Assembly (NCBI GenBank): GCA_947481575.1
Contig: CANKGV010000024.1
Span: forward strand, 1 to 36,110
From: Alphaproteobacteria bacterium
GTDB taxonomy: Bacteria; Pseudomonadota; Alphaproteobacteria; UBA2966; CAIVPW01
Direction: 5' to 3'
DNA length: 36,110 nt
The position numbers and the translations under genes are program-made. Positions 7,149 to 32,721 of the stretch are shown here, piece by piece. The notes beneath the pieces were generated by a model. The model was not told the origin of the DNA. It saw nothing but the letters and a program-made list of their open reading frames with translations, and did no database searches. The stretch's first letter is position 1; each line of letters begins with the position of its first letter.

Positions 7149-8321
7149 TCATCGAGCCGCGGCCGCCAGGAGCGATCTTGCGATCGCCTGCCACATCGGC
7201 TTGCGCTTCAAGTCATCATCAAGAACCGTCGGCCTGTGGGTCGCACCGTCGCTTCGTAGCGGCTGTGGAGGGAGGTTCAACCAGCTAATCTTGTCGGCGA
7301 TCCCCCAGGTTAGGACGGCCGTACACGCCTTTTGGGCCAGCGTGACGTCGAGAAACGCGCGAACCAGATCCGCGCACTGCGCGTCGCGCGCGGAGACGTC
7401 CATTGGCGCGCCGCGATCGTCAACATCCAGTTCCGTGACGAAGATCTTCAGCCCCAACTGAGCAATGTCGTTGAGGAACCGTGCGTAATCACGTTCAACG
7501 AACATTTCTCCGGTGTGCAGGTGGGCCTGAACGCCAAGCGCCTGGACCGGTACGTTCCTCTTCCGCAACCCCTCCAGCAATCGCAACACGTTATTGCGCT
7601 TCGTCGCGTTGTAGGGAGCGCCGTGTTCCAGATTGTAGTCGTTGTAGGTGAGGACAGCGTCCGGGTCGGCCTGGTGAGCGGCGTCAAATGCGATGTCGAA
7701 ATAGGTGGGTCCGAGGGCGTTCAAGAATGGGGTGGTCCGAAGTCCGTCGGCGCGCGCCACTGGCGCATCCCCCACCCCTTCGTTCACTACGTCCCACGAA
7801 TGAACCCGACCTTTGTAGCGGCCAACTACCTCGGCGATGTGCTTTCGAATAACCGCCTCAGCTCCGCCGCTGCCGAGCGCCGGCTCCACCCAACCGGGAA
7901 CGTTTTGATGCCAAAGCAGCGTGTGGCCTCGCAGTTTCGCGCCAGAGCGTTCTGCAAAGGTGGCGACGGCATCGGCACCACCGAAGGTCAACGCACCGCG
8001 CGTCGCCTCAAGCGATCCCCACTTCATCGCGTTTTCGGCGACGAAGACGTTGCATTCAGTGACTAGAGCCGACCCATACGCCGGATCGCTGAGAGAGAGG
8101 TTGTTCTTGGTTGGCGCAATCGCCGTTCCGAACAAGATACCTTTCGCCGACGCGTGGTCCTTGAGGCCCGGCATGGTTGCGAGCGCTGCTGGCGCGTCGT
8201 AGATGCCGGCGCCGGCCGCACTGCCGATGGGGGACATCGCCGCGGCAAATCCTGTTGCGCCAAGAAGGAATGCCCTGCGGCTACAGCCCACTCGCTCCGA
8301 CTGTACCCACGGATACTTCAT
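7149..8321 (-). CDS. Endo-1,4-beta-xylanase, glycoside hydrolase family 10, Tat-exported
   Basis: Secreted enzyme that would cut the xylan backbone. The 390-residue protein starts at ATG 8321, chosen because GGAG lies seven bases upstream and because it gives a proper signal; the longer open frame to 8423 lacks this. The N-terminus carries a twin-arginine signal (CSRRAFLLGATGFAAA, residues 13-28). The GH10 barrel shows GTAIA, NAMKWGSLE, LRGHTLLWHQNVPGW, the acid/base glutamate E181 in HSWDVVNE and the nucleophile E297 in FVTELDV, followed by LTWGIADKISW. There is no carbohydrate-binding module. It is isolated between unrelated genes in opposite orientation, and no other xylan genes are in view, so lateral acquisition is possible. 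Confidence 0.93.
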   Translation of the reverse strand: MKYPWVQSERVGCSRRAFLLGATGFAAAMSPIGSAAGAGIYDAPAALATMPGLKDHASAKGILFGTAIAPTKNNLSLSDPAYGSALVTECNVFVAENAMKWGSLEATRGALTFGGADAVATFAERSGAKLRGHTLLWHQNVPGWVEPALGSGGAEAVIRKHIAEVVGRYKGRVHSWDVVNEGVGDAPVARADGLRTTPFLNALGPTYFDIAFDAAHQADPDAVLTYNDYNLEHGAPYNATKRNNVLRLLEGLRKRNVPVQALGVQAHLHTGEMFVERDYARFLNDIAQLGLKIFVTELDVDDRGAPMDVSARDAQCADLVRAFLDVTLAQKACTAVLTWGIADKISWLNLPPQPLRSDGATHRPTVLDDDLKRKPMWQAIARSLLAAAAR

Positions 8322-9013
8322 CAAAGAACTCCAGCACTCTAGCCACCAGCAACTAAACACAATCAGAAGTAGGAAGCTGCCACAAGCGCTCTGGAAATCG
8401 CCCCCAGGTCCGGCTTTTTTCAACTCGCCTCGAAGACTCTGCGCCTTGCCGGATTGCCGCGCCGCGATAGGAACGCATCGTCCGCGCAGGGATCAGCCCG
8501 CTGAAATCCAGGGGAGGGTAAGCACTGGGCGAATCGATTGCGCGCGCTGCACCGTCGATCGACAGACACGAGACTGACAGCGTCGGGGGGCAATGGCGCC
8601 CCAACCGCACCTCCGGCACCATCCCCGCCGGTGCTGGCGCGCCCGACGCGGCGGCCGATCACTTCGTTCGCGCGCGACATCGCGGCGACGCTGCCGCCGG
8701 TGCACCGCGCGGCGGCCGAACGGCTTCAGGAGGCGCTCAGGAACGTTTCGCTGGCCATCGCCGAACGCAACCGACCGGTTCATGCCGTACACGTATATGG
8801 ACCCTGCCCACATGGCGTTCCGCATCAGCATCTGACTTCGGCAGGTGGCAGCTGCGGCGGCCCGCCGACCGGCACGCCAGCCGAGCCCGCGGCTGTGAAA
8901 CGATTGAGCAACGAGCGCGCGGTATTCGGCCCCGCAATCGGCACCGATATGATACAGGTGTTACTCGCGGATGAGACCAGTAAGAGCCTCCCTCGCGGGG
9001 GACGGCCGCGATC
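8322..9013. other. Region without a convincing gene
   Basis: About 690 bases with only biased-composition open frames. One stretch on the plus strand (about 8628-8765) could encode a plausible helical segment containing RDIAATLPPVHRAAAERLQ. The continuation that looks protein-like (RFMPYTYMDPAHMAFRISI, ending at 8835) is in another frame, so at most this is a decayed gene. A -10-like TATGAT at 8948-8953 may serve the downstream cytochrome gene. No RNA gene or repeat was recognised. Confidence 0.4.
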
Positions 9014-9031
9014 GGAGGGGAACCCGCGCAC

Positions 9032-9052
9032 ATGTCCACGTTCCTATCGTGA
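9032..9052 (+). other. Possible six-codon leader ORF coupled to the cytochrome c gene
   Basis: ATG at 9032 follows a strong purine-rich site GGAGGGG (9014-9020) at 11 bases and encodes Met-Ser-Thr-Phe-Leu-Ser. Its TGA stop (9050-9052) overlaps the GTG at 9049 that best fits the start of the cytochrome gene (GTGA). The GTG itself has no ribosome binding site at normal distance, so the short ORF may load ribosomes for it. Confidence 0.35.
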
Positions 9053-9480
9053 AGGACGCAACGCGACGGCTTCTCGCGTGGTTGGTCTGGCCCGGCGCCG
9101 TTGCCGTGGGCGTTGCCGCGTTTGTGGACGGCATGGCGGCGCCCGGCCACGCCGACCCCATTCAAATCGCCCAAGCGGAGCCCGACGCGGCGGCGCTGTT
9201 CCGCGAGGGGGAGTATCTGTACGGGCTGATGTGCGCGAGTTGCCACGGCAGCGCAGGCGAAGGCGGCTACGGCGTGAAGCTGCGCGGCAACGAAATGCTG
9301 CGGGCAGCGGACCATATCGTCACGCAGATTTTCCTCGGCACCGACGACGACATCTCGCCCCCGCTCTACGACCAGCTAAGCGACCGCGATATCGCGGGGA
9401 TCGCAACGTATCTTCGCCATGCGTGGGGCAACAATTTTGGACCGCCGGTGCTGCCGGGCGACGTGGCGGCGCTGCGCTAG
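9049..9480 (+). CDS. Class I c-type cytochrome, exported
   Basis: Periplasmic single-heme electron carrier. Residues 1-40 form a basic, hydrophobic signal sequence (RRLLAWLVWPGAVAVGVAAF). The heme attachment motif is CASCHG around residues 62-67, preceded by FREGEYLYGLM and followed by SAGEGGYGVKLRGN. The C-terminal helix LSDRDIAGIATYLRHAWGN is typical. I take GTG 9049 as start (143 residues); an upstream in-frame ATG at 8971 would add 26 residues that hide the signal peptide. The usual distal heme ligand in a xMPP-type segment is missing: the sequence there reads DDDISPPLYDQ, so either another Met (NEML) serves or the heme is differently ligated. It lies 45 bases before the K+ channel gene. 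Confidence 0.85.
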   Translation: MKDATRRLLAWLVWPGAVAVGVAAFVDGMAAPGHADPIQIAQAEPDAAALFREGEYLYGLMCASCHGSAGEGGYGVKLRGNEMLRAADHIVTQIFLGTDDDISPPLYDQLSDRDIAGIATYLRHAWGNNFGPPVLPGDVAALR

Positions 9481-9525
9481 CGTTCTAACCACAACACAGA
9501 CACGGTTTCTGGGGGGAAACACGCA

Positions 9526-10626
9526 GTGAGCGACATGGACGCCGATAGCCGCGCGTGGCGCAGCGCGTGGGCGATCGCGGATCGGGTAGCCGTGGCGGGC
9601 GTGGTGGCGGCGGTCATCGCCGACACAGAGCACGAATGGGCCGGACAATGGCACTGGCTGATCGTGGCGGCGATCTGGGCCGGGACCGCATTCTTCGCCG
9701 CAGACGTAGTGCTGCGGTGCCGGCTCGCGATCGTCCACCGTCACGGGTGGCGGCGCGGGCTGAGCGTCTATTTGCGCTCGGCATCGGCATGGGTGGACGT
9801 GGTGGCGGCCGCCGCGGTACCGGCGGCACTGCTGGCCGGATTGGATCGCGACACCGCATACCTGTTCGGACTCTTGGGCGTGCTCAAGCTGGGGCGGTAT
9901 TCGAGCGGCATGGGGTTGCTGCGGCGGGTCGCCCGCAACGCGGCGGAACCGCTGTTGTCCGTATTGCTCGCCTTCGTGATCGTGTGGACGCTGGCCGCAA
10001 CGCTCGCCTACTTGCTCGAGCGCACCGCGCAGCCAGCGACCTTTGGCAGCATCCCGCTGGCGATGTGGTGGGCGATCGTGACGCTGACTACCACGGGATA
10101 CGGCGATGCGACGCCCGTGACCCTGCCTGGCCGCGTGTTGGCCGGCGTCGTGATGGTTTCGGGCATCGGCGTGTTCGCCCTGTGGGCCGGCATTCTGGCT
10201 TCGGGGTTCGCGGACGAATTGCGGCGGCGCGACTTCCTGCGCAACTGGGACCTGGTGGCGAAGGTGCCGTTCTTCAGTTCGATCGGCGCAGGGCTGATCG
10301 GCGAGGTCGCGCGCCTGTTGCGGCGGCACGAGGTCGCCGGCGGCCAAACGGTGTTTCAGGCGGGAGAGCCAGGCGAAGCGATGTATTTCATCGTTTCCGG
10401 CGCCGTCGAGGTACGGGTACCCGGCGGGCCGGTGCGGCTTGGCGAGAACGGGTTCTTTGGCGAGATGGCGCTGATCTCCGGCGCGCCCCGCACGGCCACC
10501 GTCGTAGCGCTCGATGCCTGCATCCTGCTGGAGCTAGGCGTAGCCGAGTTCCGCCACCTAGCCGGATCGCGGCCGGAACTCATGGACGTGATCCACCAGG
10601 AATCCAGCCGGCGCGCCGCCTCGTAG
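9526..10626 (+). CDS. Cyclic-nucleotide-gated potassium channel (MlotiK1-like)
   Basis: Six-transmembrane K+ channel with a cytoplasmic cyclic-nucleotide-binding domain, 366 residues, close to MlotiK1 length. Spans S1-S6 occupy about residues 15-230; the pore contains the selectivity filter TTTGYGD with G191-Y192-G193-D194. S4 has few arginines, as in ligand-gated rather than voltage-gated members. The binding domain (about 240-350) has VFQAGEPGEAMYFIVSGAVE and the phosphate-binding cassette FFGEMALISGAPRTATV, in which Glu and Arg contact cAMP in the family. The start is GTG 9526 with a GGGGGG stretch just upstream. It follows the cytochrome gene and converges with the bacterioferritin gene after six bases. 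Confidence 0.92.
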   Translation: MSDMDADSRAWRSAWAIADRVAVAGVVAAVIADTEHEWAGQWHWLIVAAIWAGTAFFAADVVLRCRLAIVHRHGWRRGLSVYLRSASAWVDVVAAAAVPAALLAGLDRDTAYLFGLLGVLKLGRYSSGMGLLRRVARNAAEPLLSVLLAFVIVWTLAATLAYLLERTAQPATFGSIPLAMWWAIVTLTTTGYGDATPVTLPGRVLAGVVMVSGIGVFALWAGILASGFADELRRRDFLRNWDLVAKVPFFSSIGAGLIGEVARLLRRHEVAGGQTVFQAGEPGEAMYFIVSGAVEVRVPGGPVRLGENGFFGEMALISGAPRTATVVALDACILLELGVAEFRHLAGSRPELMDVIHQESSRRAAS

Positions 10627-23628: not shown

Positions 23629-25449
23629 TCAGCTGCCGGTAGGGTGGACGGCATCCCACATCGCGGCAAACGCCGCCTCCACCTGTGCCGCCCAGCGCCG
23701 CGGATCGAATAGCGGAGCGGGTTCCTGCAGGCGGGCGCGCAAGCGTGCGAGCCGGCTTGGGTCATGGGCGAGTTCAGCCCCCACACCCATGGCATGGGCA
23801 AGATTCTCTGCCACGCATTCCGGGATGCCTGCCGCGACAACCAGCGCCGCCCCGAATGCCGGCCCGGGGTTGCGCGTCGTGAGGACCGGTACGCCCGCTG
23901 CCAGAAATTCCAGCACCGTGGCGCCGCTCTTTTGCACCCACGTATCAAGGGCGATGTCGGCGCAGACCAACCGTCGCCGGTGTTCGGCGTTGGCAATGCG
24001 CGGCGCCCACACTAGGCGGTCACCGCTGACGCCCGCGGCTGCCGCATAGCGCACGAGGTTGCGGCGCACGGTGTCGCCACCATCCAGCAGCCACAGCCGC
24101 GCGGAGGGGGCGGCCTTCAAAAGCCCCATCCAAGCGCGCCACGACTCCGGGTCGAACTTGTGCGGCTCGGCGAAGGCCGCGAACACCAACGATTCGGGTG
24201 GCAACCCCGCCTCGCTGCGGGTCATCGGTACGTCCGCGCTGCGCGGCGTAGCGGCCCACGGACCGTCCAGCCAGGCGATGCGCGCAGGGACAGCGCCCGC
24301 GACCGCAGGATCCGCGTACGAAGTCCGATCCGCGATCAACCAGGGGCACCAGTCGCCCCCGAGCGGCAGATTCAGCCCTAGGTAGTGGCACTGCACCGGC
24401 GCCGGACGCAGCGCGAGAATCTCAGGACGTGCACCGCGGGTGTATCCGGCCAGGTCGACCAGAACATTGATCCCGTCCGCATTGATGTGGGCGGCCGCAG
24501 TTGCGGCGGCGTCGTGGGAGATGTCGCGGAACCGGTCGAACACCCCGGCAAACCAAGCGGTAGTGTCGTCGCGGTTGGCATCGGGCACCAGCGAGTAACC
24601 GAACAGTTCAACCCGGCCACGATCGAGTGCGCTCACCAATGTGGCGGCCATTCGCCCGGCCGAGTGCCCACGAAAATCCGGCGACAGGAAGCCGATGCGG
24701 AGGCGCTTGCCGCGCCGCGCGTACCGGAAGGGCTCGGTGCGCTGCGCCGACGCGGCGCGCGCCACCCCTGCGGCAACGGCCCGGACGACGTCCATGCACA
24801 GCGCAAACGGGGCACCCGTGGCCAGGAAGCCCAGCATCGGCGCCGACACGGGATCGCCGGACGCCAGTTCGGCCCGGGTCGCCGCGATCACTTGGTGCGT
24901 GAGGGCGTCAAGCTCGCGCCAATCGCACAGGCGGCGTTTGGCGTTCACCAGATGGGCAGTGGCGGCAGCGTTGCCGGGGTCCAGTTCGAGCGCGCGGCGG
25001 AACGCCAGCACGGCCTCCTCGAACCGGCGCTGCCCGTGCAAAAGCACCGCGTAGCCGATGCGCGCGGCCGGGTCGTCCGGCGCTGCAGCGATCGCGCGCT
25101 CGAAGGCCAGGCGCGCCTCTTCGCCCCGATCCAGCAACTGGAGCGTGGCCGCCCTGCCCTGCAAGGCCTCGCGATTGCCTGGGTCGTCACTGAGCAGCGC
25201 ATCGAATGCCGCCAACGCGGTACCGTAGAGCGAAGACGCCTGCAGCAACCCGGCGGCGCGAATCAGGGCCGACCGCAGGCCAGCATCGCCCGGCTGCGCC
25301 ACGAGCGCTTTCGCGAGCCATTGCGCTGCGCTGGCCCAGTCGTTCTGTCCGACATAGGCGCGGCCCAGCGCGCGCAGGAGTGCGGGATCGCCGGGCGTCC
25401 GCTGTTGCTGGGCGAGCAACTCGGACAGGTGCTGAGAGGCGTCCGCCAT
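23629..25449 (-). CDS. SPINDLY-type O-linked glycosyltransferase (GT41) with TPR repeats
   Basis: Cytoplasmic glycosyltransferase predicted to attach a sugar (GlcNAc or fucose in known relatives) to Ser/Thr of proteins. Residues about 1-170 are TPR helices (ALLRALGRAYVGQNDW, AAARIGYAVLLHGQRRFEEA with the ALELDPGNAAA end). The GT41 part starts near 240: RLRIGFLSPDFRGHSAGRM with the conserved His, INVLVDLAGYTRGARPEILA, APVQCHYLG, FAAFAEPHKFDPESWRAWM and SARLWLLDGG. The nucleotide-sugar segment is divergent: where most SPINDLY proteins have DTxPYNGHTTxSDALWxGVPV, this one has LDTWVQKSGATVLEFLAAGVPV. It is last in the operon with the repeat polypeptide, 50 bases after the regulator gene, with a hairpin between. 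Its target could be the [IV][ST]P sites of that polypeptide (inference). Confidence 0.85.
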   Translation of the reverse strand: MADASQHLSELLAQQQRTPGDPALLRALGRAYVGQNDWASAAQWLAKALVAQPGDAGLRSALIRAAGLLQASSLYGTALAAFDALLSDDPGNREALQGRAATLQLLDRGEEARLAFERAIAAAPDDPAARIGYAVLLHGQRRFEEAVLAFRRALELDPGNAAATAHLVNAKRRLCDWRELDALTHQVIAATRAELASGDPVSAPMLGFLATGAPFALCMDVVRAVAAGVARAASAQRTEPFRYARRGKRLRIGFLSPDFRGHSAGRMAATLVSALDRGRVELFGYSLVPDANRDDTTAWFAGVFDRFRDISHDAAATAAAHINADGINVLVDLAGYTRGARPEILALRPAPVQCHYLGLNLPLGGDWCPWLIADRTSYADPAVAGAVPARIAWLDGPWAATPRSADVPMTRSEAGLPPESLVFAAFAEPHKFDPESWRAWMGLLKAAPSARLWLLDGGDTVRRNLVRYAAAAGVSGDRLVWAPRIANAEHRRRLVCADIALDTWVQKSGATVLEFLAAGVPVLTTRNPGPAFGAALVVAAGIPECVAENLAHAMGVGAELAHDPSRLARLRARLQEPAPLFDPRRWAAQVEAAFAAMWDAVHPTGS

Positions 25450-25499: not shown

Positions 25500-26204
25500 C
25501 TAGAGGTCGTCTTCCTGGGACGCGCGCGAGAGACCACCGGCATCGCGAATCGTGACATAGCCCCGGCTGCGAGTGATGAGGCCGGCGCGCTGGAACCCCA
25601 TGAGTTCTTTGTTCACGCTCTCGCGGGTGGCGCCGAGCATGCGGGCGAGCATCTCCTGGGTCAGCTTGAGTTGGATGACTGTGCCGTCCTGGCGCGTGGC
25701 GCCGTGCTCTCCCGCCAGCCTGAGCAAGCGGCTGGCTAGGCGCGAGCGGATGGCGCGGTTAAGCGAGTCCTCGATCACGCCACTGGTCCAGCGCAGGCGC
25801 TCGCACACCAGTTCCAGCAGACGCACGCACAGGCGGTTGTTGCGGCCCAACAACTCGTGGACCACGCGCCGCTCGACGAACAATAGCTGTACCGCCTCCA
25901 TGGCCACGGCCCCGGCGGTGCGCTCACCCCCATCGATGGCGGCGATCTCGCCGAAGATGTCGCCCTTGTCCAAGACGTTCAGAAAGATCTCGTTGCCGTC
26001 CTGAAACAGCGTCTTGATGCCGATCTGCCCCGAGACGATGAGGTACAGCCCATCGCCGGGGTCGCCGCGATGGAAGATCTGCCGGTTCTTTTCGTAACTG
26101 CGGACCGTTGAGGCGGCGACCAAGTAGTCCACCTCGGCGGGCGCAAGGACCCGGAGGATGGCATTGCCGAGAACGAGGTTGCGAAGGGTCTCCGCCTGCG
26201 ACAT
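25500..26204 (-). CDS. CRP-like cAMP-type transcription regulator of the repeat-polypeptide operon
   Basis: A 234-residue CRP/FNR-family activator. The N-terminal cyclic-nucleotide domain has GDPGDGLYLIVSGQIGI and the phosphate-binding cassette GDIFGEIAAIDGGERTAGAV, where E86 and R95 match the cAMP-binding Glu/Arg and T96 takes the CRP Ser83 place. The dimer helix reads RLRWTSGVIEDSL, and aligned with E. coli CRP (RLQVTSEKVGNL) it keeps the Thr-Ser pair that contacts the adenine. The helix-turn-helix ends LGATRESVNKEL: R194, E195 and K199 stand where CRP has R180, E181 and R185. There are no FNR-type cysteines. ATG 26204 shares its A with the stop of tfuA (TGATG), so translation is coupled. 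The operon promoter carries a perfect CRP-type palindrome (29288-29303). Confidence 0.9.
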   Translation of the reverse strand: MSQAETLRNLVLGNAILRVLAPAEVDYLVAASTVRSYEKNRQIFHRGDPGDGLYLIVSGQIGIKTLFQDGNEIFLNVLDKGDIFGEIAAIDGGERTAGAVAMEAVQLLFVERRVVHELLGRNNRLCVRLLELVCERLRWTSGVIEDSLNRAIRSRLASRLLRLAGEHGATRQDGTVIQLKLTQEMLARMLGATRESVNKELMGFQRAGLITRSRGYVTIRDAGGLSRASQEDDL

Positions 26205-26953
26205 CAGCGGCGCATTGCGCCAACCCGGCCCGCATCGCTGAACGCGCGCGCCCAAAGGGTCGTGTGCTCGAAATGAAACCGCGGCTTGGCGCGGGCCAGG
26301 CCACCCGCGACATGGGTAGACACGGTACGTACCAGACTCACGGCGTCCTCCCGCTTGGCATCGCGCCTGCCAGATGGCAGCCACGCGCGGAAGCGGTCAA
26401 CTTCCGACGCAGCAACACCGCCCTCGCCGGCACGCCGGGCAATCAGGTCGTAGCTACGCGACTTGTAGGGCATTTCCTTGGCCACCCGCTCGAATACCTT
26501 CCGTGCTTGCTCGGAAAGTATACCTCCGGCGCGGGCATCGGACAGCGTGCAGCGAATGTTGACCATCGCCTCGGACAACGGCAGGTAGCCGAGTTCGGCC
26601 GGGCCGTGGACCACGGCCACCTCGTCGTCGTCTTCCAGCGCACCGTCGCGGAACGCCTCGAATACGGCGCCGACGCCGATCATGCCGAACGCATGCAATT
26701 CCGCCGCGCGCAACGCGCCCATGCTGGCCGCGCCGTACACCGGGATGCCATTGGACAGCGCGAACAGGATTTCCTTGTGCCACACCGACGGCACGTTTTC
26801 GAAGAAGCCGTCGATGATGCCGATTGCATCCGGCTTGCGGCCGACGACCCGAATGATGTCGCCTTGGGCAACCGGCGGAAGGATTTCCGCGTCGATCAAC
26901 TTGCGCGCGGCGCTTGGCGGAAGGCTCGGACCGGTAAAGATGACTGCACTCAT
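26204..26953 (-). CDS. tfuA: TfuA-like protein, partner of the YcaO enzyme
   Basis: A 249-residue member of the TfuA family, named from the trifolitoxin cluster of Rhizobium and found as YcaO partner in thioamide-forming systems (methyl-CoM reductase thioglycine, thioviridamide-type peptides). The protein begins VIFTGPSLPPSAARKL, then PPVAQGDIIRV, and has the family core IIDGFFENVPSVWHKEILFAL, GIPVYGAASMGALRAAEL and GVGAVFEAFRDGALEDDDEVA. The start ATG 26953 overlaps the ycaO stop by four bases (ATGA), and its stop overlaps the regulator start by one. The C-terminal third (about 180-249) is less conserved. Its role, possibly helping sulfur delivery or activating YcaO, is inferred from the family. 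Confidence 0.92.
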   Translation of the reverse strand: MSAVIFTGPSLPPSAARKLIDAEILPPVAQGDIIRVVGRKPDAIGIIDGFFENVPSVWHKEILFALSNGIPVYGAASMGALRAAELHAFGMIGVGAVFEAFRDGALEDDDEVAVVHGPAELGYLPLSEAMVNIRCTLSDARAGGILSEQARKVFERVAKEMPYKSRSYDLIARRAGEGGVAASEVDRFRAWLPSGRRDAKREDAVSLVRTVSTHVAGGLARAKPRFHFEHTTLWARAFSDAGRVGAMRR

Positions 26954-28239
26954 GACGCCAACCTTTGGTTTGCGCGGGCAGCAGCGCCCGCTTGGTAATG
27001 GGCGCGCGCGCCCGGGAGGTAACCGGCGTGATCCATGCCTTCGAGGCCGGGAATGACGACCCGCGCCACTGGAACGCCGAATTCCGGCTTGGTCAGATCC
27101 ACCATCACAACATCGGTGCCGCCGGCGGCAAGGATGCGCGCCACTTCGGTTTCGATGTCGCGGCCGATCGCATCGGTAGCGACGCTTGGAACCGCGCGAA
27201 AATCACGAGTACCCTTCACGCCGGTAACCTGCGCGCTCCAGCGCGCCTGCACGGCCGGATCGAGAAAGTGCTCGTACTCGCTGCGCGGCATGTCATCGCG
27301 CGCACCGGAGATGAACGTCAGCCGGCTTTGGGCAGCTTCGGTGAGGGACCGCAGAACGGCGATCACCTTGGACGGATGGCACCCCATTCCGACGGCCGGG
27401 CGCATTCCGTAGCGGGCACCGTCACGCTGTACCGCGCGGCACAAAAACGCCGGCAGGCCGATGTCGGACGTGATTTCCCAGATGCCGACATCGACACCAG
27501 CATTGAGGAAGCGCTGGATCAGCTCGTTCACCCAGCCATCGTCAATCGTGTCGAGATCGACCTTCGTAGCGGCCTGCGCCGCCGCATCGCGCAGGTGCCA
27601 TAGCGTGGCCGCATCGCGCTCGACAATTTCCGAGATGCCGTGACTTACGGCTTCCTCAAGAGTATTGCCCGACGCCAAGCCATTGGAACTGGCGAGGAAG
27701 CAGCCGTGGCCCGGAGGCAAGGGTGTCGTGTAATTCAGGTGAACGGTTTCATACGGCACCCAAACGTTATCACCGCTGACCAAGCTGCGGCCTTCGATCC
27801 ACAGCAACGGCGCGTGTTGGCTATAGCGGGTCGTGGCGAGCCGCGGCAGTTTCGCCACATCAACCACGTTGTGGGTGTACCGCAGTTCCTCATAGCTCGC
27901 GAGCTTGAGCGGCAGCGTGATGTGTTCGGCGTGGTACGACTCGATCGCCTCCATCACACCCGACGCTTTCGCGGCGGCAAGCGTCGCACCCTTCCCCTGG
28001 GCCACCGAGATCGACCGCGAATTGGGACGCGACACCATGACCACCGGGATGCCGACACTGTCGAGCCCCGTGACATTGGCAACGCGCGTGATTCCCATCG
28101 CCGGCAGGAGCGGCAGAACTGCGTTGAGCGTCTCTTCTGGCGAGACCGTGCGTTCGGTGCCAGCGCGATATTTCTTGACGCCCAGGCCAAGCTGGCCCGC
28201 GCGCAGGTGTTCGGCGATCGAGGTCGGGGCTGTGGTCAT
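26950..28239 (-). CDS. ycaO: YcaO-domain enzyme, ATP-dependent peptide-backbone modification
   Basis: YcaO enzymes use ATP to activate a backbone amide, giving azolines, thioamides or amidines in peptides. This 429-residue protein has the ATP/Mg2+ glutamates in ASGVMEAIESYHAEH (near 95) and SHGISEIVERDAATLWH (near 200), with SNGLASGNTLEEAV before it and VPVARVVIPGLEGMDHAG near the end. It lacks the C-terminal PxPxP typical of azoline-forming cyclodehydratases and ends in a plain ARANQRLAS; there is also no E1-like partner gene. With TfuA directly downstream (four-base overlap), thioamide-type chemistry is the best guess. ATG 28239 lies 59 bases after the repeat-polypeptide gene. A longer in-frame start at 28362 would overlap that gene and is rejected. 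Confidence 0.93.
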   Translation of the reverse strand: MTTAPTSIAEHLRAGQLGLGVKKYRAGTERTVSPEETLNAVLPLLPAMGITRVANVTGLDSVGIPVVMVSRPNSRSISVAQGKGATLAAAKASGVMEAIESYHAEHITLPLKLASYEELRYTHNVVDVAKLPRLATTRYSQHAPLLWIEGRSLVSGDNVWVPYETVHLNYTTPLPPGHGCFLASSNGLASGNTLEEAVSHGISEIVERDAATLWHLRDAAAQAATKVDLDTIDDGWVNELIQRFLNAGVDVGIWEITSDIGLPAFLCRAVQRDGARYGMRPAVGMGCHPSKVIAVLRSLTEAAQSRLTFISGARDDMPRSEYEHFLDPAVQARWSAQVTGVKGTRDFRAVPSVATDAIGRDIETEVARILAAGGTDVVMVDLTKPEFGVPVARVVIPGLEGMDHAGYLPGARAHYQAGAAARANQRLAS

Positions 28240-28298: not shown

Positions 28299-29225
28299 TT
28301 ACGACGCAACGTCGGGAGTAATGGCCCAGCGGCCAGCGTCGGCGTCCGGTGTAACCGCCCAACGGCCCGCATCCGCATCAGCCTTCACTTCCGGGGTGAC
28401 CGCCCAACGGCCGGCGTCCGCGTCGGGCGAAATCGCCCAGCGGCCCGCGTCGGCATCGGCCTTCACTTCCGGGGTGACCGCCCAGCGGCCAGCGTCGGCG
28501 TCCGGCGTAACCGCCCAACGGCCCGCGTCGGCATCGGCCTTCACTTCCGGGGTGACCGCCCAACGGCCGGCGTCCGCGTCGGGCGAAATCGCCCAGCGGC
28601 CCGCGTCGGCGTCGGCCTTCACTTCCGGGGTGATCGCCCAACGGCCGGCGTCCGCGTCGGGCGAAATCGCCCAACGGCCCGCGTCGGCATCGGCCTTCAC
28701 TTCCGGGGTGATCGCCCAACGGCCGGCGTCCGCGTCAGGCGAAATCGCCCAACGGCCCGCGTCGGCGTCGGCCTTCATTTCCGGGGTGACCGCCCAACGG
28801 CCGGCGTCCGCGTCGGGCGAAATCGCCCAGCGGCCTGCGTCGGCATCGGCCTTCACTTCCGGGGTGATCGCCCAACGGCCGGCGTCCGCGTCAGGCGAAA
28901 TCGCCCAGCGGCCTGCGTCGGCATCAGCCTTCACTTCCGGGGTGACCGCCCAACGGCCCGCGTCAGCGTCGGGCGAAATTGCCCAGCGGCCCGCGTCGGC
29001 ATCGGCCTTCACTTCCGGGGTGATCGCCCAACGGCCTGCGTCCGCGTCGGGCGTGACTGCCCAGCGGCCCGCTGCCTGATCCGCGGACGCAATCGGCGCC
29101 GGTGCTACGGCAACCACGTTCGCGTCGGACTGGACGGCTACGCACGTACCACCACCAACTTCGTACAAAACCCCGTCGGGACCACGCACTGCGATCTTGC
29201 CGACGTTCTTCGGATCCATGAGCAT
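28299..29225 (-). CDS. Repetitive polypeptide, candidate YcaO-TfuA substrate (RiPP-like precursor)
   Basis: A 308-residue acidic protein. I do not recognise a family. Residues 1-49 form a non-repetitive, leader-like part (MLMDPKNVGKIAVRGPDGVL, then YEVGGGTCVAV) with the only Cys. Residues 50-308 are twenty GRWA units: an 11-residue DADAGRWAISP alternates with a 15-residue DADAGRWAVTPEVKA, making a 26-residue repeat; eight full copies are framed by a variant first pair (QAAGRWAVTP) and a last pair ending ITPDVAS. Each unit has one Ser or Thr, always in [IV][ST]P, one Trp and one Arg. ATG 29225 is chosen for AAGGA seven bases upstream; 29252 and 29219 are alternatives. It is first in the operon with ycaO, tfuA, a CRP-like regulator and a GT41 gene, which makes it the likely substrate. 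Confidence 0.85.
   Translation of the reverse strand: MLMDPKNVGKIAVRGPDGVLYEVGGGTCVAVQSDANVVAVAPAPIASADQAAGRWAVTPDADAGRWAITPEVKADADAGRWAISPDADAGRWAVTPEVKADADAGRWAISPDADAGRWAITPEVKADADAGRWAISPDADAGRWAVTPEMKADADAGRWAISPDADAGRWAITPEVKADADAGRWAISPDADAGRWAITPEVKADADAGRWAISPDADAGRWAVTPEVKADADAGRWAVTPDADAGRWAVTPEVKADADAGRWAISPDADAGRWAVTPEVKADADAGRWAVTPDADAGRWAITPDVAS
28302..29078 (-). repeat. 78-bp tandem repeats encoding the GRWA units
   Basis: Coding repeat of 26 codons, eight complete copies plus variant ends. Differences between copies are mostly at third codon positions (for example CAG/CAA and GCG/GCA alternatives on the complement) or are V/I and S/T exchanges, so the peptide is more conserved than the DNA. 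All copies are in frame with no stop. Confidence 0.95.
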
Positions 29226-29261
29226 TGAGTGTTCCTTGCCCGTTATGTTCAACCGCTGGCT

Positions 29262-29267
29262 ACTATG
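29262..29267 (-). promoter_or_regulatory. Predicted -10 box of the repeat-polypeptide operon
   Basis: Minus-strand CATAGT matches TATAAT at four of six positions. It would start transcription near 29255, about 30 bases before the ATG. The centre of the CRP-type palindrome would then lie close to -41, the class II activator position, which also explains the absence of a good -35. Confidence 0.5.
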
Positions 29268-29287
29268 GCGACGTACAGCGCATTCTC

Positions 29288-29303
29288 TGTGAAGGAATTC
29301 ACA
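29288..29303. promoter_or_regulatory. Perfect CRP-type operator
   Basis: TGTGAAGGAATTCACA is an exact TGTGA-N6-TCACA palindrome, the consensus half-sites of CRP. It stands between the repeat-polypeptide gene (start 63 bases away, minus strand) and the divergent 72-residue ORF (60 bases away, plus strand). The CRP-like regulator in the same operon has the matching recognition-helix residues. Confidence 0.8.
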
Positions 29304-29362: not shown

Positions 29363-29581
29363 ATGAAGCAGACAACCGACACGCGGGTTCGCGCCACGCG
29401 GAAGCCCCCGCGCTACGAAGCCCTGAATGGCATCAAAGCGTGCTTGGATCAGCTCAGCGCTGAAGCGCAAAACCAGCAGGCGCCGCTTGCGGCGCTGCTG
29501 ATAGCGGCGGCGTCAGAGGCGTGCCGGGATGCGGCGTTTCCGAAGAAGGCTCGTCGAGTGACGAGCAAAGAGGCAGCTTAG
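29363..29581 (+). CDS. Small basic protein of unknown function, divergent from the repeat-polypeptide gene
   Basis: A 72-residue open frame starting MKQTTDTRVRATRKPPRYEA, from ATG 29363 with GGAG eight bases upstream. A basic N-terminus is followed by a predicted amphipathic helix (LNGIKACLDQLSAEAQNQQ), an Ala-rich hydrophobic stretch (PLAALLIAAASEA) and a basic tail (FPKKARRVTSKEAA). No family is recognised. It shares the regulatory region and the CRP-type site with the repeat polypeptide, so it may belong to that system. Its TAG overlaps the TAA stop of the convergent cyclase gene by three bases. Confidence 0.6.
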   Translation: MKQTTDTRVRATRKPPRYEALNGIKACLDQLSAEAQNQQAPLAALLIAAASEACRDAAFPKKARRVTSKEAA

Positions 29582-32500
29582 TTCAGCTGCTCTCCGCGCC
29601 GGGGTCCGGCGGGCATGCACAGAATGCCTTTGGCCTGAACGCGCCAGTAGTCCATCGCCATGCGCGAGAAATCGCGGCCGGCAGAACGGACGAAGTCGTT
29701 ACCCTGCGCCGGGTGACTGCCGGCGAGGTGCGCACCGAGTTCCAAAGTGCACTGGGCCACGAGCGGACGCATGCCCTGGCGCCCTGCGATCCACAACGAC
29801 TGCCACAGCGAACGGGAGGCGGCCGCAGGGTCGGCATCGCTCTGGGCCTTGCCAAGCGCGTACCAAGCCCACGCCTCGTAACCCTTTTCGCCGTGCGCTT
29901 GGGCCGCGGCCACGGCACGCCGACCGGCCGCGATGGCGAACTGGACACGCCCGGCAGCCGAGAGGGCCAGCGACAGCCACCCGAGCTGCTGGGATAGCTG
30001 GCACAAGACCGGGTCGTTGGTGGCGCCCGCGATCGCCTCTTCGAGCCGGCTGACACCGGCCTCGAGGTTCCCGTCAAGAGTCAGCGCATATCCCAAGGCG
30101 CTAACGATGCGGCGGTACAACAGATTGGAGCCAATCGCCTGGCAAGTCTGGAGTGCTTGGTCGAGCAAACCAATGCCGCGCTTGGAATCGCCTTTGCGAA
30201 GGTAGACGCCGCCTGCATAGAGCAGGGCATAGACGCGGCTGAATGCGTGCCCGGACTGCTCGGCGGCCGACAATGCCTCGTCCGCCAGCCGGATTGCTTC
30301 GTCGAAGCGGCCACATTCCGCCAGGGCCAACGCCAACGGCGCATGGAACATCACCGGATGAACAACCAAGAACCCGGGCACCATCACGCCTGATTCGGCA
30401 CGCGACGCTGCCGTCGCTTCGGTCAGATATTTCACCGCTAGGCGGAAGTGGCCACGATCCACCGCGAGGGCGCCGAGGCGCCCCGTGGCCAGCAATTCGA
30501 GATCGGCAAACCCTGAGGCCCGCGCACTGCGCAACGCCCGCAGGCCCACGCGGTGCGCCTCATCCAGGTTGCCGGTCACCCAACTGTGCAGCAGAACACT
30601 GCACAACGTGCTGGTGAGCACGCGCGGGTCACGCGAACGCCGCGCGGCGACGCGCGCTGCATCAAGGTGCCCGCGCGCCTGCTCGGATTGGCCGAGCGGC
30701 AGCAACGCGTCGGCGAGCCCGAGAAGGACATCTGCCGTGCGCACGTCGTTGCGAGGAGAGCGGCGCGCATGCGCCAAGGCGCGCGCGGCCTCACCGAACA
30801 GAACCGATGCTTCCTTGTGACGGGAATGCGCTGCCGCGATTCGTCCGGCCTCGTGCCCGTACAGGTACGCGCGGCCCCACACTTGGGCACGGTATGCGTG
30901 GTACGCCATCAGAGCCACCCGATTGAGCGGGTGACGTTGCGACGGCCGCCGCAGAATCTGCAGAACGCTCCGATGCAGATCGATGCGCAACGCTTTTGGC
31001 AGCGACGCGTATGCGACTTCGTGCATCAACGCGTGGGTGAAACTGAATTCCAAATTCGGAATTACGCGTGTGCGGTGAACGAACCCAGCTTCGCCGAGAC
31101 GATTGAGGGTGCCCAACAGTTGCTGCCCCTCGCCGCACAGCTTGGCCAATAGCCGGTAGTCGAAGGTTTGTCCGATCACGGCGGCCCGGTAGAGCACCTC
31201 TTGCTCGACGGCCGACAATTGATCGATGCGCGCCGCGATTGCGCTGTGCACGCTCGACGGCACCCGGAAATCCTGTTCCCAGTCGCGACCGCGCGCGGCC
31301 GCACCCCGGGCCGCCGCCCCGGCGGCCTCGCGCATTGCCATCGCACAAGCGAGCAAGAAGAACGGATTGCCTTCGGTCTTGGCGATCAGCAGATCGTGCA
31401 ACGGACGCGGCGCCGCCTCGCCGAACACACGGTCAATCAGGACGCTGCTGTCGGCCGCGGTCAGCGGCCCAAGCGGCAACAGACGGGTATTGGGCCACGG
31501 CAAGTCCCGCGCCTCGCTGCTGGTCCGCGCGGTCAGGACCACCAGGATCGATGCCTGGTGGATGCGGGCCGTCAGTAGTTCCAGCAACTGGCCGCAATCC
31601 GAGTCCGCCCAGTGCATGTCCTCGACGACGAGCAGAAGGGGCTCGTCGACAGCCACTGCGATGAGAATATGCACCGCAGCGGCAAGCATGAGATTGCGTT
31701 TGCCAGCAGCGTCGAGCGAGCGCCATGCGTTCACTGGGGCCGTGTCGCCCAGCAAGGCATGCCCCGCGGCAGCGTGAAGCGTATCCAGACCTTCTAGCGA
31801 ACGTACGGCGGCGTCGCGCGCACCCAAATACCCGAGCGCGCCTGCGACGATTTCCTGAATCGGCTCACTGGCGCGCGGCAAGTGCGGGGGCAAGCATGCG
31901 CTCACTACGGTGCGGACGCCGGCCAAGCGCGCATCGCGAGCGAACTCCGCAACCAAGCGGCTCTTGCCGATCCCCGGATCGCCGGCGATCAACAGGGTTC
32001 TTCCGTGACCGCACCGCGCGCTTTCCAACGCCTCCTGCAGGAGACCCGACTCGCGGGCGCGGCCGACCATTGGCGCGGCCCCGGCACCGTCCAAGTTGGT
32101 GCCGCGGACGAGTTTCACTTCGGCAAACACGAGAGAAGCCACACTCGGCATCCCAGGGCTGAGCAAAACCGCCGGGCCGGGTTTCGCAAATACCGCGTCT
32201 GGCGCGAGGCTCACTGTCTCGGGCGTCACCAGCGTAGTGCCGGGCTTGGCCGCCGCGGCCAAGCGCGCAGCGATGTACACAGCCTCGCCTGCCATGCGGT
32301 ACTCGGGCCAGCGGTCCGGCCGAATCTCTTGGGCGAGGACCGGGCCCGAATTGATGCCGATCCGGACCCGCGCCGCAGCATCGCCGCCGACCGCCGCAAG
32401 CTTCGCGACCGCTGCCTGCATCCGCTGAGCCGCCAAACACGCGCGAAGCGCGTGGTCTTCTTGGGACGCAGGAGCGCCGAACACCGCCATGATGCCGTCG

Positions 32501-32721
32501 CCCAGCACCTGCGTGACGGAGCCGCCCAGACTCTGAACGGCCTCGATCATCGTTTGCAGAGTGGCCAACAGGGATTCGTTGGCGCTCTCCGGATCGCGTC
32601 CGATCACGACCTGGGACGACGCGACGATGTCGGCGAACAGAATCGTCACGACCTTGCGCCGAGCTTCCGCAACGCGGACTACGCCGCGAGCCTCCAGGGT
32701 GTCGGTGACTGTGCCGTTCAA
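29578..32721 (-). CDS. Class III nucleotide cyclase / AAA ATPase / TPR multidomain protein
   Basis: A 1047-residue signalling protein. An N-terminal class III cyclase domain (about 20-190) has the two metal Asp residues, D31 in ILFADIVASS and D75 in LGDGIMAVFGAP, and the transition-state Arg R153 in AARL. The Lys that usually selects adenine is Gln71, the Asp is Glu146 and the Asn is Tyr149, so the product cannot be predicted. An ATPase of the AAA_16/STAND type follows (Walker A GDPGIGKSRLVAEFA near 247, Walker B LLLVVEDMHWADSD), then a TPR region to the end. There is no LuxR DNA-binding domain. The start is TTG 32721, supported by GAGG five bases upstream, which itself contains the stop of the dppC-like gene; the two are therefore coupled. 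Confidence 0.87.
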   Translation of the reverse strand: MNGTVTDTLEARGVVRVAEARRKVVTILFADIVASSQVVIGRDPESANESLLATLQTMIEAVQSLGGSVTQVLGDGIMAVFGAPASQEDHALRACLAAQRMQAAVAKLAAVGGDAAARVRIGINSGPVLAQEIRPDRWPEYRMAGEAVYIAARLAAAAKPGTTLVTPETVSLAPDAVFAKPGPAVLLSPGMPSVASLVFAEVKLVRGTNLDGAGAAPMVGRARESGLLQEALESARCGHGRTLLIAGDPGIGKSRLVAEFARDARLAGVRTVVSACLPPHLPRASEPIQEIVAGALGYLGARDAAVRSLEGLDTLHAAAGHALLGDTAPVNAWRSLDAAGKRNLMLAAAVHILIAVAVDEPLLLVVEDMHWADSDCGQLLELLTARIHQASILVVLTARTSSEARDLPWPNTRLLPLGPLTAADSSVLIDRVFGEAAPRPLHDLLIAKTEGNPFFLLACAMAMREAAGAAARGAAARGRDWEQDFRVPSSVHSAIAARIDQLSAVEQEVLYRAAVIGQTFDYRLLAKLCGEGQQLLGTLNRLGEAGFVHRTRVIPNLEFSFTHALMHEVAYASLPKALRIDLHRSVLQILRRPSQRHPLNRVALMAYHAYRAQVWGRAYLYGHEAGRIAAAHSRHKEASVLFGEAARALAHARRSPRNDVRTADVLLGLADALLPLGQSEQARGHLDAARVAARRSRDPRVLTSTLCSVLLHSWVTGNLDEAHRVGLRALRSARASGFADLELLATGRLGALAVDRGHFRLAVKYLTEATAASRAESGVMVPGFLVVHPVMFHAPLALALAECGRFDEAIRLADEALSAAEQSGHAFSRVYALLYAGGVYLRKGDSKRGIGLLDQALQTCQAIGSNLLYRRIVSALGYALTLDGNLEAGVSRLEEAIAGATNDPVLCQLSQQLGWLSLALSAAGRVQFAIAAGRRAVAAAQAHGEKGYEAWAWYALGKAQSDADPAAASRSLWQSLWIAGRQGMRPLVAQCTLELGAHLAGSHPAQGNDFVRSAGRDFSRMAMDYWRVQAKGILCMPAGPRRGEQLN

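Follow-up and report, generated by a model that had tools for sequence, protein, structure and literature searches.

The window analyzed here, a stretch of 36,110 nucleotides from an alphaproteobacterial contig, contains a CRP-type palindrome upstream of a gene for a repeat protein, and a CRP-type regulator is encoded a few genes further on. Does this regulator act through the palindrome on its own synthesis, as the original prediction held? We conclude, with a probability of about 0.85, that the palindrome serves as operator for the CgrA-type regulator encoded in the operon and that the resulting loop is one of positive feedback. There are no binding, transcript or ligand data for this organism. 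The relevant features are listed below.

29288 to 29303, no strand: predicted operator for the operon's own CRP/CgrA-type regulator, TGTGAAGGAATTCACA; conserved in relatives, no binding data
29262 to 29267, minus: putative -10 element CATAGT, a 4/6 match to TATAAT; weak, from sequence
28299 to 29225, minus: multi-core precursor peptide gene; leader with VRGPDGVLY, then 20 GRWA(V/I)(T/S)P cores
26950 to 28239, minus: YcaO protein (Pfam YcaO 1.4e-83); orthologue of R. centenum GcyB, 57% identity
26204 to 26953, minus: TfuA-like protein (Pfam TfuA 7.8e-48); orthologue of R. centenum GcyC, 60% identity
25500 to 26204, minus: CRP/CgrA-type regulator, 234 aa; recognition helix TRESVNK; 42% identity to R. 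centenum CgrA
29578 to 32721, minus: GcyA-like class III cyclase/AAA/TPR protein (Pfam Guanylate_cyc 2.6e-16); 32% identity to the R. centenum protein
29363 to 29581, plus: divergent small ORF, 72 aa; kept in two genomes of the same family (L044, L045)
23629 to 25449, minus: TPR/GT41 glycosyltransferase-like (OGT-like) gene, 50 bp after the regulator

The palindrome and its operon

The palindrome is present where it had been claimed, as a perfect TGTGA-N6-TCACA site, and a pattern search found no other in the window. It is located between two divergent genes, in a 352-bp intergenic region, with the precursor ATG (29225) 62 bases downstream and preceded by AAGGAAC, which resembles a ribosome binding site. 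Perfect sites are expected from base composition at 0.0096 per window and about 1e-4 per intergenic region of this size. The 2.45 Mb genome contains three (a reversed-pattern control gave none), and the extended form TGTGAA-N4-TTCACA occurs only once, as the window palindrome (0.018 expected from base composition). One of the other two perfect sites is 88 bp before a pentapeptide-repeat gene and one is within a predicted reading frame; their sequence context was uninformative about function.

The adjacent YcaO and TfuA genes, together with the precursor gene, form the gene set expected for a YcaO-TfuA RiPP. The YcaO and TfuA genes overlap by 4 bases and the regulator gene overlaps the TfuA stop codon. 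Thus, translational coupling is suggested, although this is an inference. Both enzymes score under the NCBIfam cut-offs for McrA thioamidation. Matches of the repeat protein to Pfam DUF3145 and similar families were dismissed as artefacts of repeats or composition.

The GT41-like gene is possibly part of the operon. It could glycosylate the product or be unrelated, and in L044 and L045, the closest relatives, the surroundings of the regulator gave no match to it. The divergent 72-aa ORF is unannotated and has no Pfam match; it occupies the place of an RHH gene in R. centenum (RC1_3784) and Azospirillum.

The regulator belongs to the CRP/FNR superfamily and has a cNMP-binding domain and a Crp-type HTH (Pfam 1e-22 and 7.8e-18). 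It is the best match to CgrA in this genome (173 bits; the next match scores 84). The placement of R194, E195 and K199 in the recognition helix is correct for the 234-aa protein starting at 26204. At the equivalent positions (180, 181 and 185 in CRP numbering), all 53 operonic regulators compared have R and E, followed by K in 52 and R in one. The same three residues occur in R. centenum CgrA, and also in GlxR of Corynebacterium glutamicum and CRP of M. tuberculosis, the nearest relatives with solved structures (1e-28). GlxR binds TGTGANNTANNTCACA and mostly activates (PMC4254451). Unlike the window regulator, however, GlxR and M. tuberculosis CRP are global cAMP regulators and are not encoded at the end of a peptide operon. 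E. coli CRP is more distant (1e-18) and has R185 in place of K, and the window regulator differs from it in being operon-encoded.

Conservation in relatives and the CgrA circuit of R. centenum

We collected YcaO relatives from GTDB genomes and plasmids and read the surroundings of each. Conservation of the palindrome before homologous repeat genes had been proposed as a check. Of the distinct YcaO-TfuA loci in which a CRP gene directly follows TfuA, all 50 have a recognizable palindrome before the precursor (42 perfect, six with one mismatch and two with a paired change). A perfect palindrome is found in none of the 18 distinct YcaO-TfuA loci without the CRP gene, and no perfect site was found elsewhere in the 1.1 Mb of sequence flanking the loci. 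Within one family (82 genomes), TGTGAA-N4-TTCACA is present in 54 of 58 genomes with the operon and CRP gene vs. 2 of 24 others (Fisher 7e-14). The 12-base site is also absent from genomes of the window organism's genus that lack the operon. Most of the 50 loci come from a single family, the Azospirillaceae, many of them from Azospirillum, and do not count as independent cases, but the family of the window organism and two other families (L048 and L050) show the pattern too.

Two loci (L131 and L153) were considered as exceptions and rejected as such; they carry AGTGAAGAACTTCACT and AGTGAAGTTCTTCACT, with a symmetric change on both arms (AGTGA...TCACT). In L153 the palindrome, some 400 bp ahead of YcaO, forms part of a far longer inverted repeat that is also perfect (GCATACCCGGTTACGCAGTGAAGTTCTTCACTGCGTAACCGGGTATGC). 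In L048, from an AT-rich alphaproteobacterium of 1.6 Mb, the likely precursor (leader VLGQDGKSYFIV) is on the opposite strand about 180 bp upstream of the site at 2553, thus divergent from the site rather than between it and YcaO. Tandem operators 32 bp apart (about three helical turns) occur in two genomes of the window's family (L044, 8396 and 8428; L045, 6368 and 6400), where the window has one. Many Azospirillum genomes (L155 to L169) have a second TGTGAA-N4-TTCACA, in several cases near a gene for a Hint-domain or DUF1311-like protein. It is possibly a second regulon target, but no consistent shared intergenic target was found for the second sites in the Azospirillum genomes read.

A circuit of this type has been studied by experiment in R. 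centenum, where its control of cyst formation has been published. The evidence includes a CgrA footprint, ChIP-seq and RNA-seq of a cgrA mutant (PMC4681086). With cGMP, CgrA footprints TGTGA-N6-TCACA before RC1_3785-gcyB-gcyC-cgrA, at a site listed as TGTGAAGCAGTTCACA (PMC4681086). Deletion of cgrA reduces RC1_3785 18-fold, gcyB and gcyC 60- to 80-fold, and the divergent RC1_3784 12-fold (60-fold elsewhere in the text) (PMC4681086). Binding, activation and the role of cGMP were thus shown by others in R. centenum, whereas our own observations are of the site, the operon, orthology and co-conservation.

From the exact listed site and the gene order, one of our loci (L115) is identified as this operon. 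It contains precisely TGTGAAGCAGTTCACA, an RHH_4 gene in the divergent position and a first ORF, MSMLIRGADGRLYAIEADSAVTVEEPVTSAEPVVLVGQSGGEGDYFGGAIVCEA. The divergent M starts at 7453 and 7682 are 229 bp apart, in agreement with the 231 bp (43+188) implied for this distance by the table of PMC4681086, and thus the small first ORF is very likely RC1_3785.

The window shares with R. centenum the gene order, TGTGAA-N4-TTCACA before a small first gene, a CRP-type regulator as fourth gene behind YcaO and TfuA, a linked cyclase/AAA protein and a divergent small gene. The four proteins have the identities to R. centenum given above. The window differs in a precursor with 20 cores (R. centenum has a single 54-aa peptide), in a divergent gene without an RHH match, in the GT41-like gene that follows, and in coming from an organism outside the Azospirillaceae. 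The claim that the regulator activates its own operon is supported by the co-occurrence of the palindrome with the operonic CRP gene, by the experiments in which the orthologous R. centenum CgrA footprints the operator and activates the operon, and by the R/E/K residues. Because experiments in one relative have already proven this mode of regulation, the prediction for this genome is strong. R. centenum CgrA controls many genes through degenerate sites, however, and feedback on its own operon may therefore not be the whole of the regulator's role.

Promoter, ligand and competing explanations

The proposed -10-like CATAGT is found at the expected place on the minus strand, at an offset of 21 after the site. 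The palindrome center (29295.5) is computed to be at -40.5 if transcription starts at 29255 and at -41.5 if it starts at 29254, which reproduces the earlier estimate of about 41 bases; both starts are predicted and unmapped. R. centenum and the loci closest to it share a TTACGGT-like block, with little-conserved flanks, 22 bases after the site, and L044 and L045 have TAAGTA at this same offset, counted from their second site. We also looked for a -10 motif common to all loci, testing each offset downstream of the site, and found clade-specific elements only, without strong enrichment of TATAAT. The operator sequence and a predicted spacing near -41.5 resemble class II promoters of E. coli CRP. 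The spacing (within one base) and the conserved elements in relatives fit the proposed class II position, which remains a prediction because the -10 element matches the consensus at only 4/6 positions and no start has been mapped.

For this organism, binding, activation, ligand, start site and peptide chemistry are all inferred. We suggest that the GcyA-like cyclase encoded upstream would make a cyclic nucleotide, more likely cGMP than cAMP, and that the liganded regulator, as a CgrA orthologue, would bind the palindrome. From there, some 41 bases before the start, it would recruit RNA polymerase in the class II manner, driving expression of the precursor, YcaO, TfuA and the regulator itself, and so closing the positive feedback. 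The product would probably be a modified peptide, likely thioamidated, that is cut from the 20 repeated cores.

We consider cGMP the likelier ligand, with moderate confidence, because the nearest studied relative, CgrA, is a cGMP receptor. R. centenum is said to make cGMP with its linked cyclase, reportedly a finding of Marden in 2011 that PMC4681086 cites. At the two substrate-specifying positions the linked cyclase of the window has Q and R, and its R. centenum counterpart Q and P. All CRP-locus cyclases that were read and have their catalytic motif intact share the Q at the first position. The regulator's pocket residues match those of CgrA, but cAMP and cGMP receptors cannot be told apart by the classic ligand-contact residues. 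The same operator and regulator could respond to cAMP instead, as in GlxR and M. tuberculosis CRP, and we regard this as possible but doubtful. These two proteins are the closest solved relatives, and G71, E72, R82, T127 and S128 of the regulator agree with E. coli CRP. Furthermore, the genome has nine class III cyclase matches, and the seven of the eight non-linked ones that are readable at the first substrate position all have K. The linked cyclase, however, lacks this adenylyl-type K, and cGMP alone is reported to activate CgrA, the regulator's orthologue (PMC10127613).

Other explanations concern the role of the site itself. Control mainly of the divergent small gene, or of both genes, is unlikely as a rival, although the palindrome center is 67.5 bp from the ATG of that gene, the ORF is conserved in L044 and L045, and the divergent genes of R. 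centenum are both activated by CgrA (12- and 18-fold). A site serving only the divergent gene would be at odds with the activation published for the whole operon; a site serving both is compatible with the main reading. We give slightly less weight still to a global regulon in which another CRP-family protein is the binder, for example the paralogue L007. That protein has a cNMP-binding motif and, with RETVAR in its recognition helix, might also recognize the palindrome; the genome has two further perfect 10-base sites. Against it, the site tracks the presence of the operonic CRP gene across genomes, and genomes of the same genus without the operon also lack the 12-base site. CRP-family proteins can repress if their site overlaps a promoter, and the palindrome could therefore be an operator for negative autoregulation. 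This is about as improbable, or marginally more so, since the orthologous CgrA activates, operon expression falls in the mutant, and the conserved element is at an activation spacing rather than within the site. Chance is the least credible explanation: three perfect sites do exist in 2.45 Mb, but hardly any would be expected in this intergenic region, and retention in every distinct CRP-bearing relative already refutes it.

A proposed RiPP reading of GcyB and GcyC

GcyB and GcyC have been described as putative or non-catalytic guanylyl cyclase subunits (PMC4681086). Judged from their sequences, they are members of the YcaO and TfuA families: in L115 the second gene (7944-9188) matches YcaO at 2e-89 and the third (9235-9978) matches TfuA at 5.7e-47. 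Proteins of these families jointly thioamidate peptides (PMC6511847). RC1_3785 and the window repeat precursor share a conserved leader, and (I/V)RGADGRLY or a close variant is present in nearly every first-gene peptide read, with a variable tail. The RC1_3785 leader appears RiPP-like, and the cGMP encystment loop appears to be a RiPP operon. We found no literature joining gcyB with TfuA or YcaO, in a search that excluded the primary papers Marden 2011 and Roychowdhury 2015.

Taken as a whole, the following proposal could as easily fail as hold. The cGMP encystment loop of the Azospirillum clade, the best-studied bacterial cGMP loop, would be built around a RiPP operon. Rather than being cyclase subunits, GcyB and GcyC would form a YcaO-TfuA pair modifying the RC1_3785 peptide. 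Once modified, this peptide would have its role in the cGMP/dormancy loop, either within the cell or outside it, and a peptide of this type would have expanded to 20 cores in the window lineage.

This kind of circuit was already known; what is new is the multi-core precursor, the lineage and the reassignment of GcyB and GcyC. The comparison alters the view of a known system, in that two proteins published as putative, non-catalytic cyclase subunits fall in peptide-thioamidating families and an unstudied first gene shares the precursor leader. A role for a modified peptide in bacterial cGMP signaling or dormancy becomes testable in culturable R. centenum and Azospirillum.

Like thiovarsolin-type RiPP loci, the window has adjacent YcaO and TfuA genes behind a precursor with repeating cores (PMC6511847). 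It differs in having a GRWAxxP rather than an APR core, in lacking varO/L/P/S genes, and in the added loop of cyclase and CRP. The tail of the Azospirillum first-gene peptide (e.g., DHEAARHAITPGL) resembles one of the window repeats (DADAGRWAITP). This resemblance suggests that the cores multiplied from a single copy to about seven in L044 and L045 and to twenty in the window.
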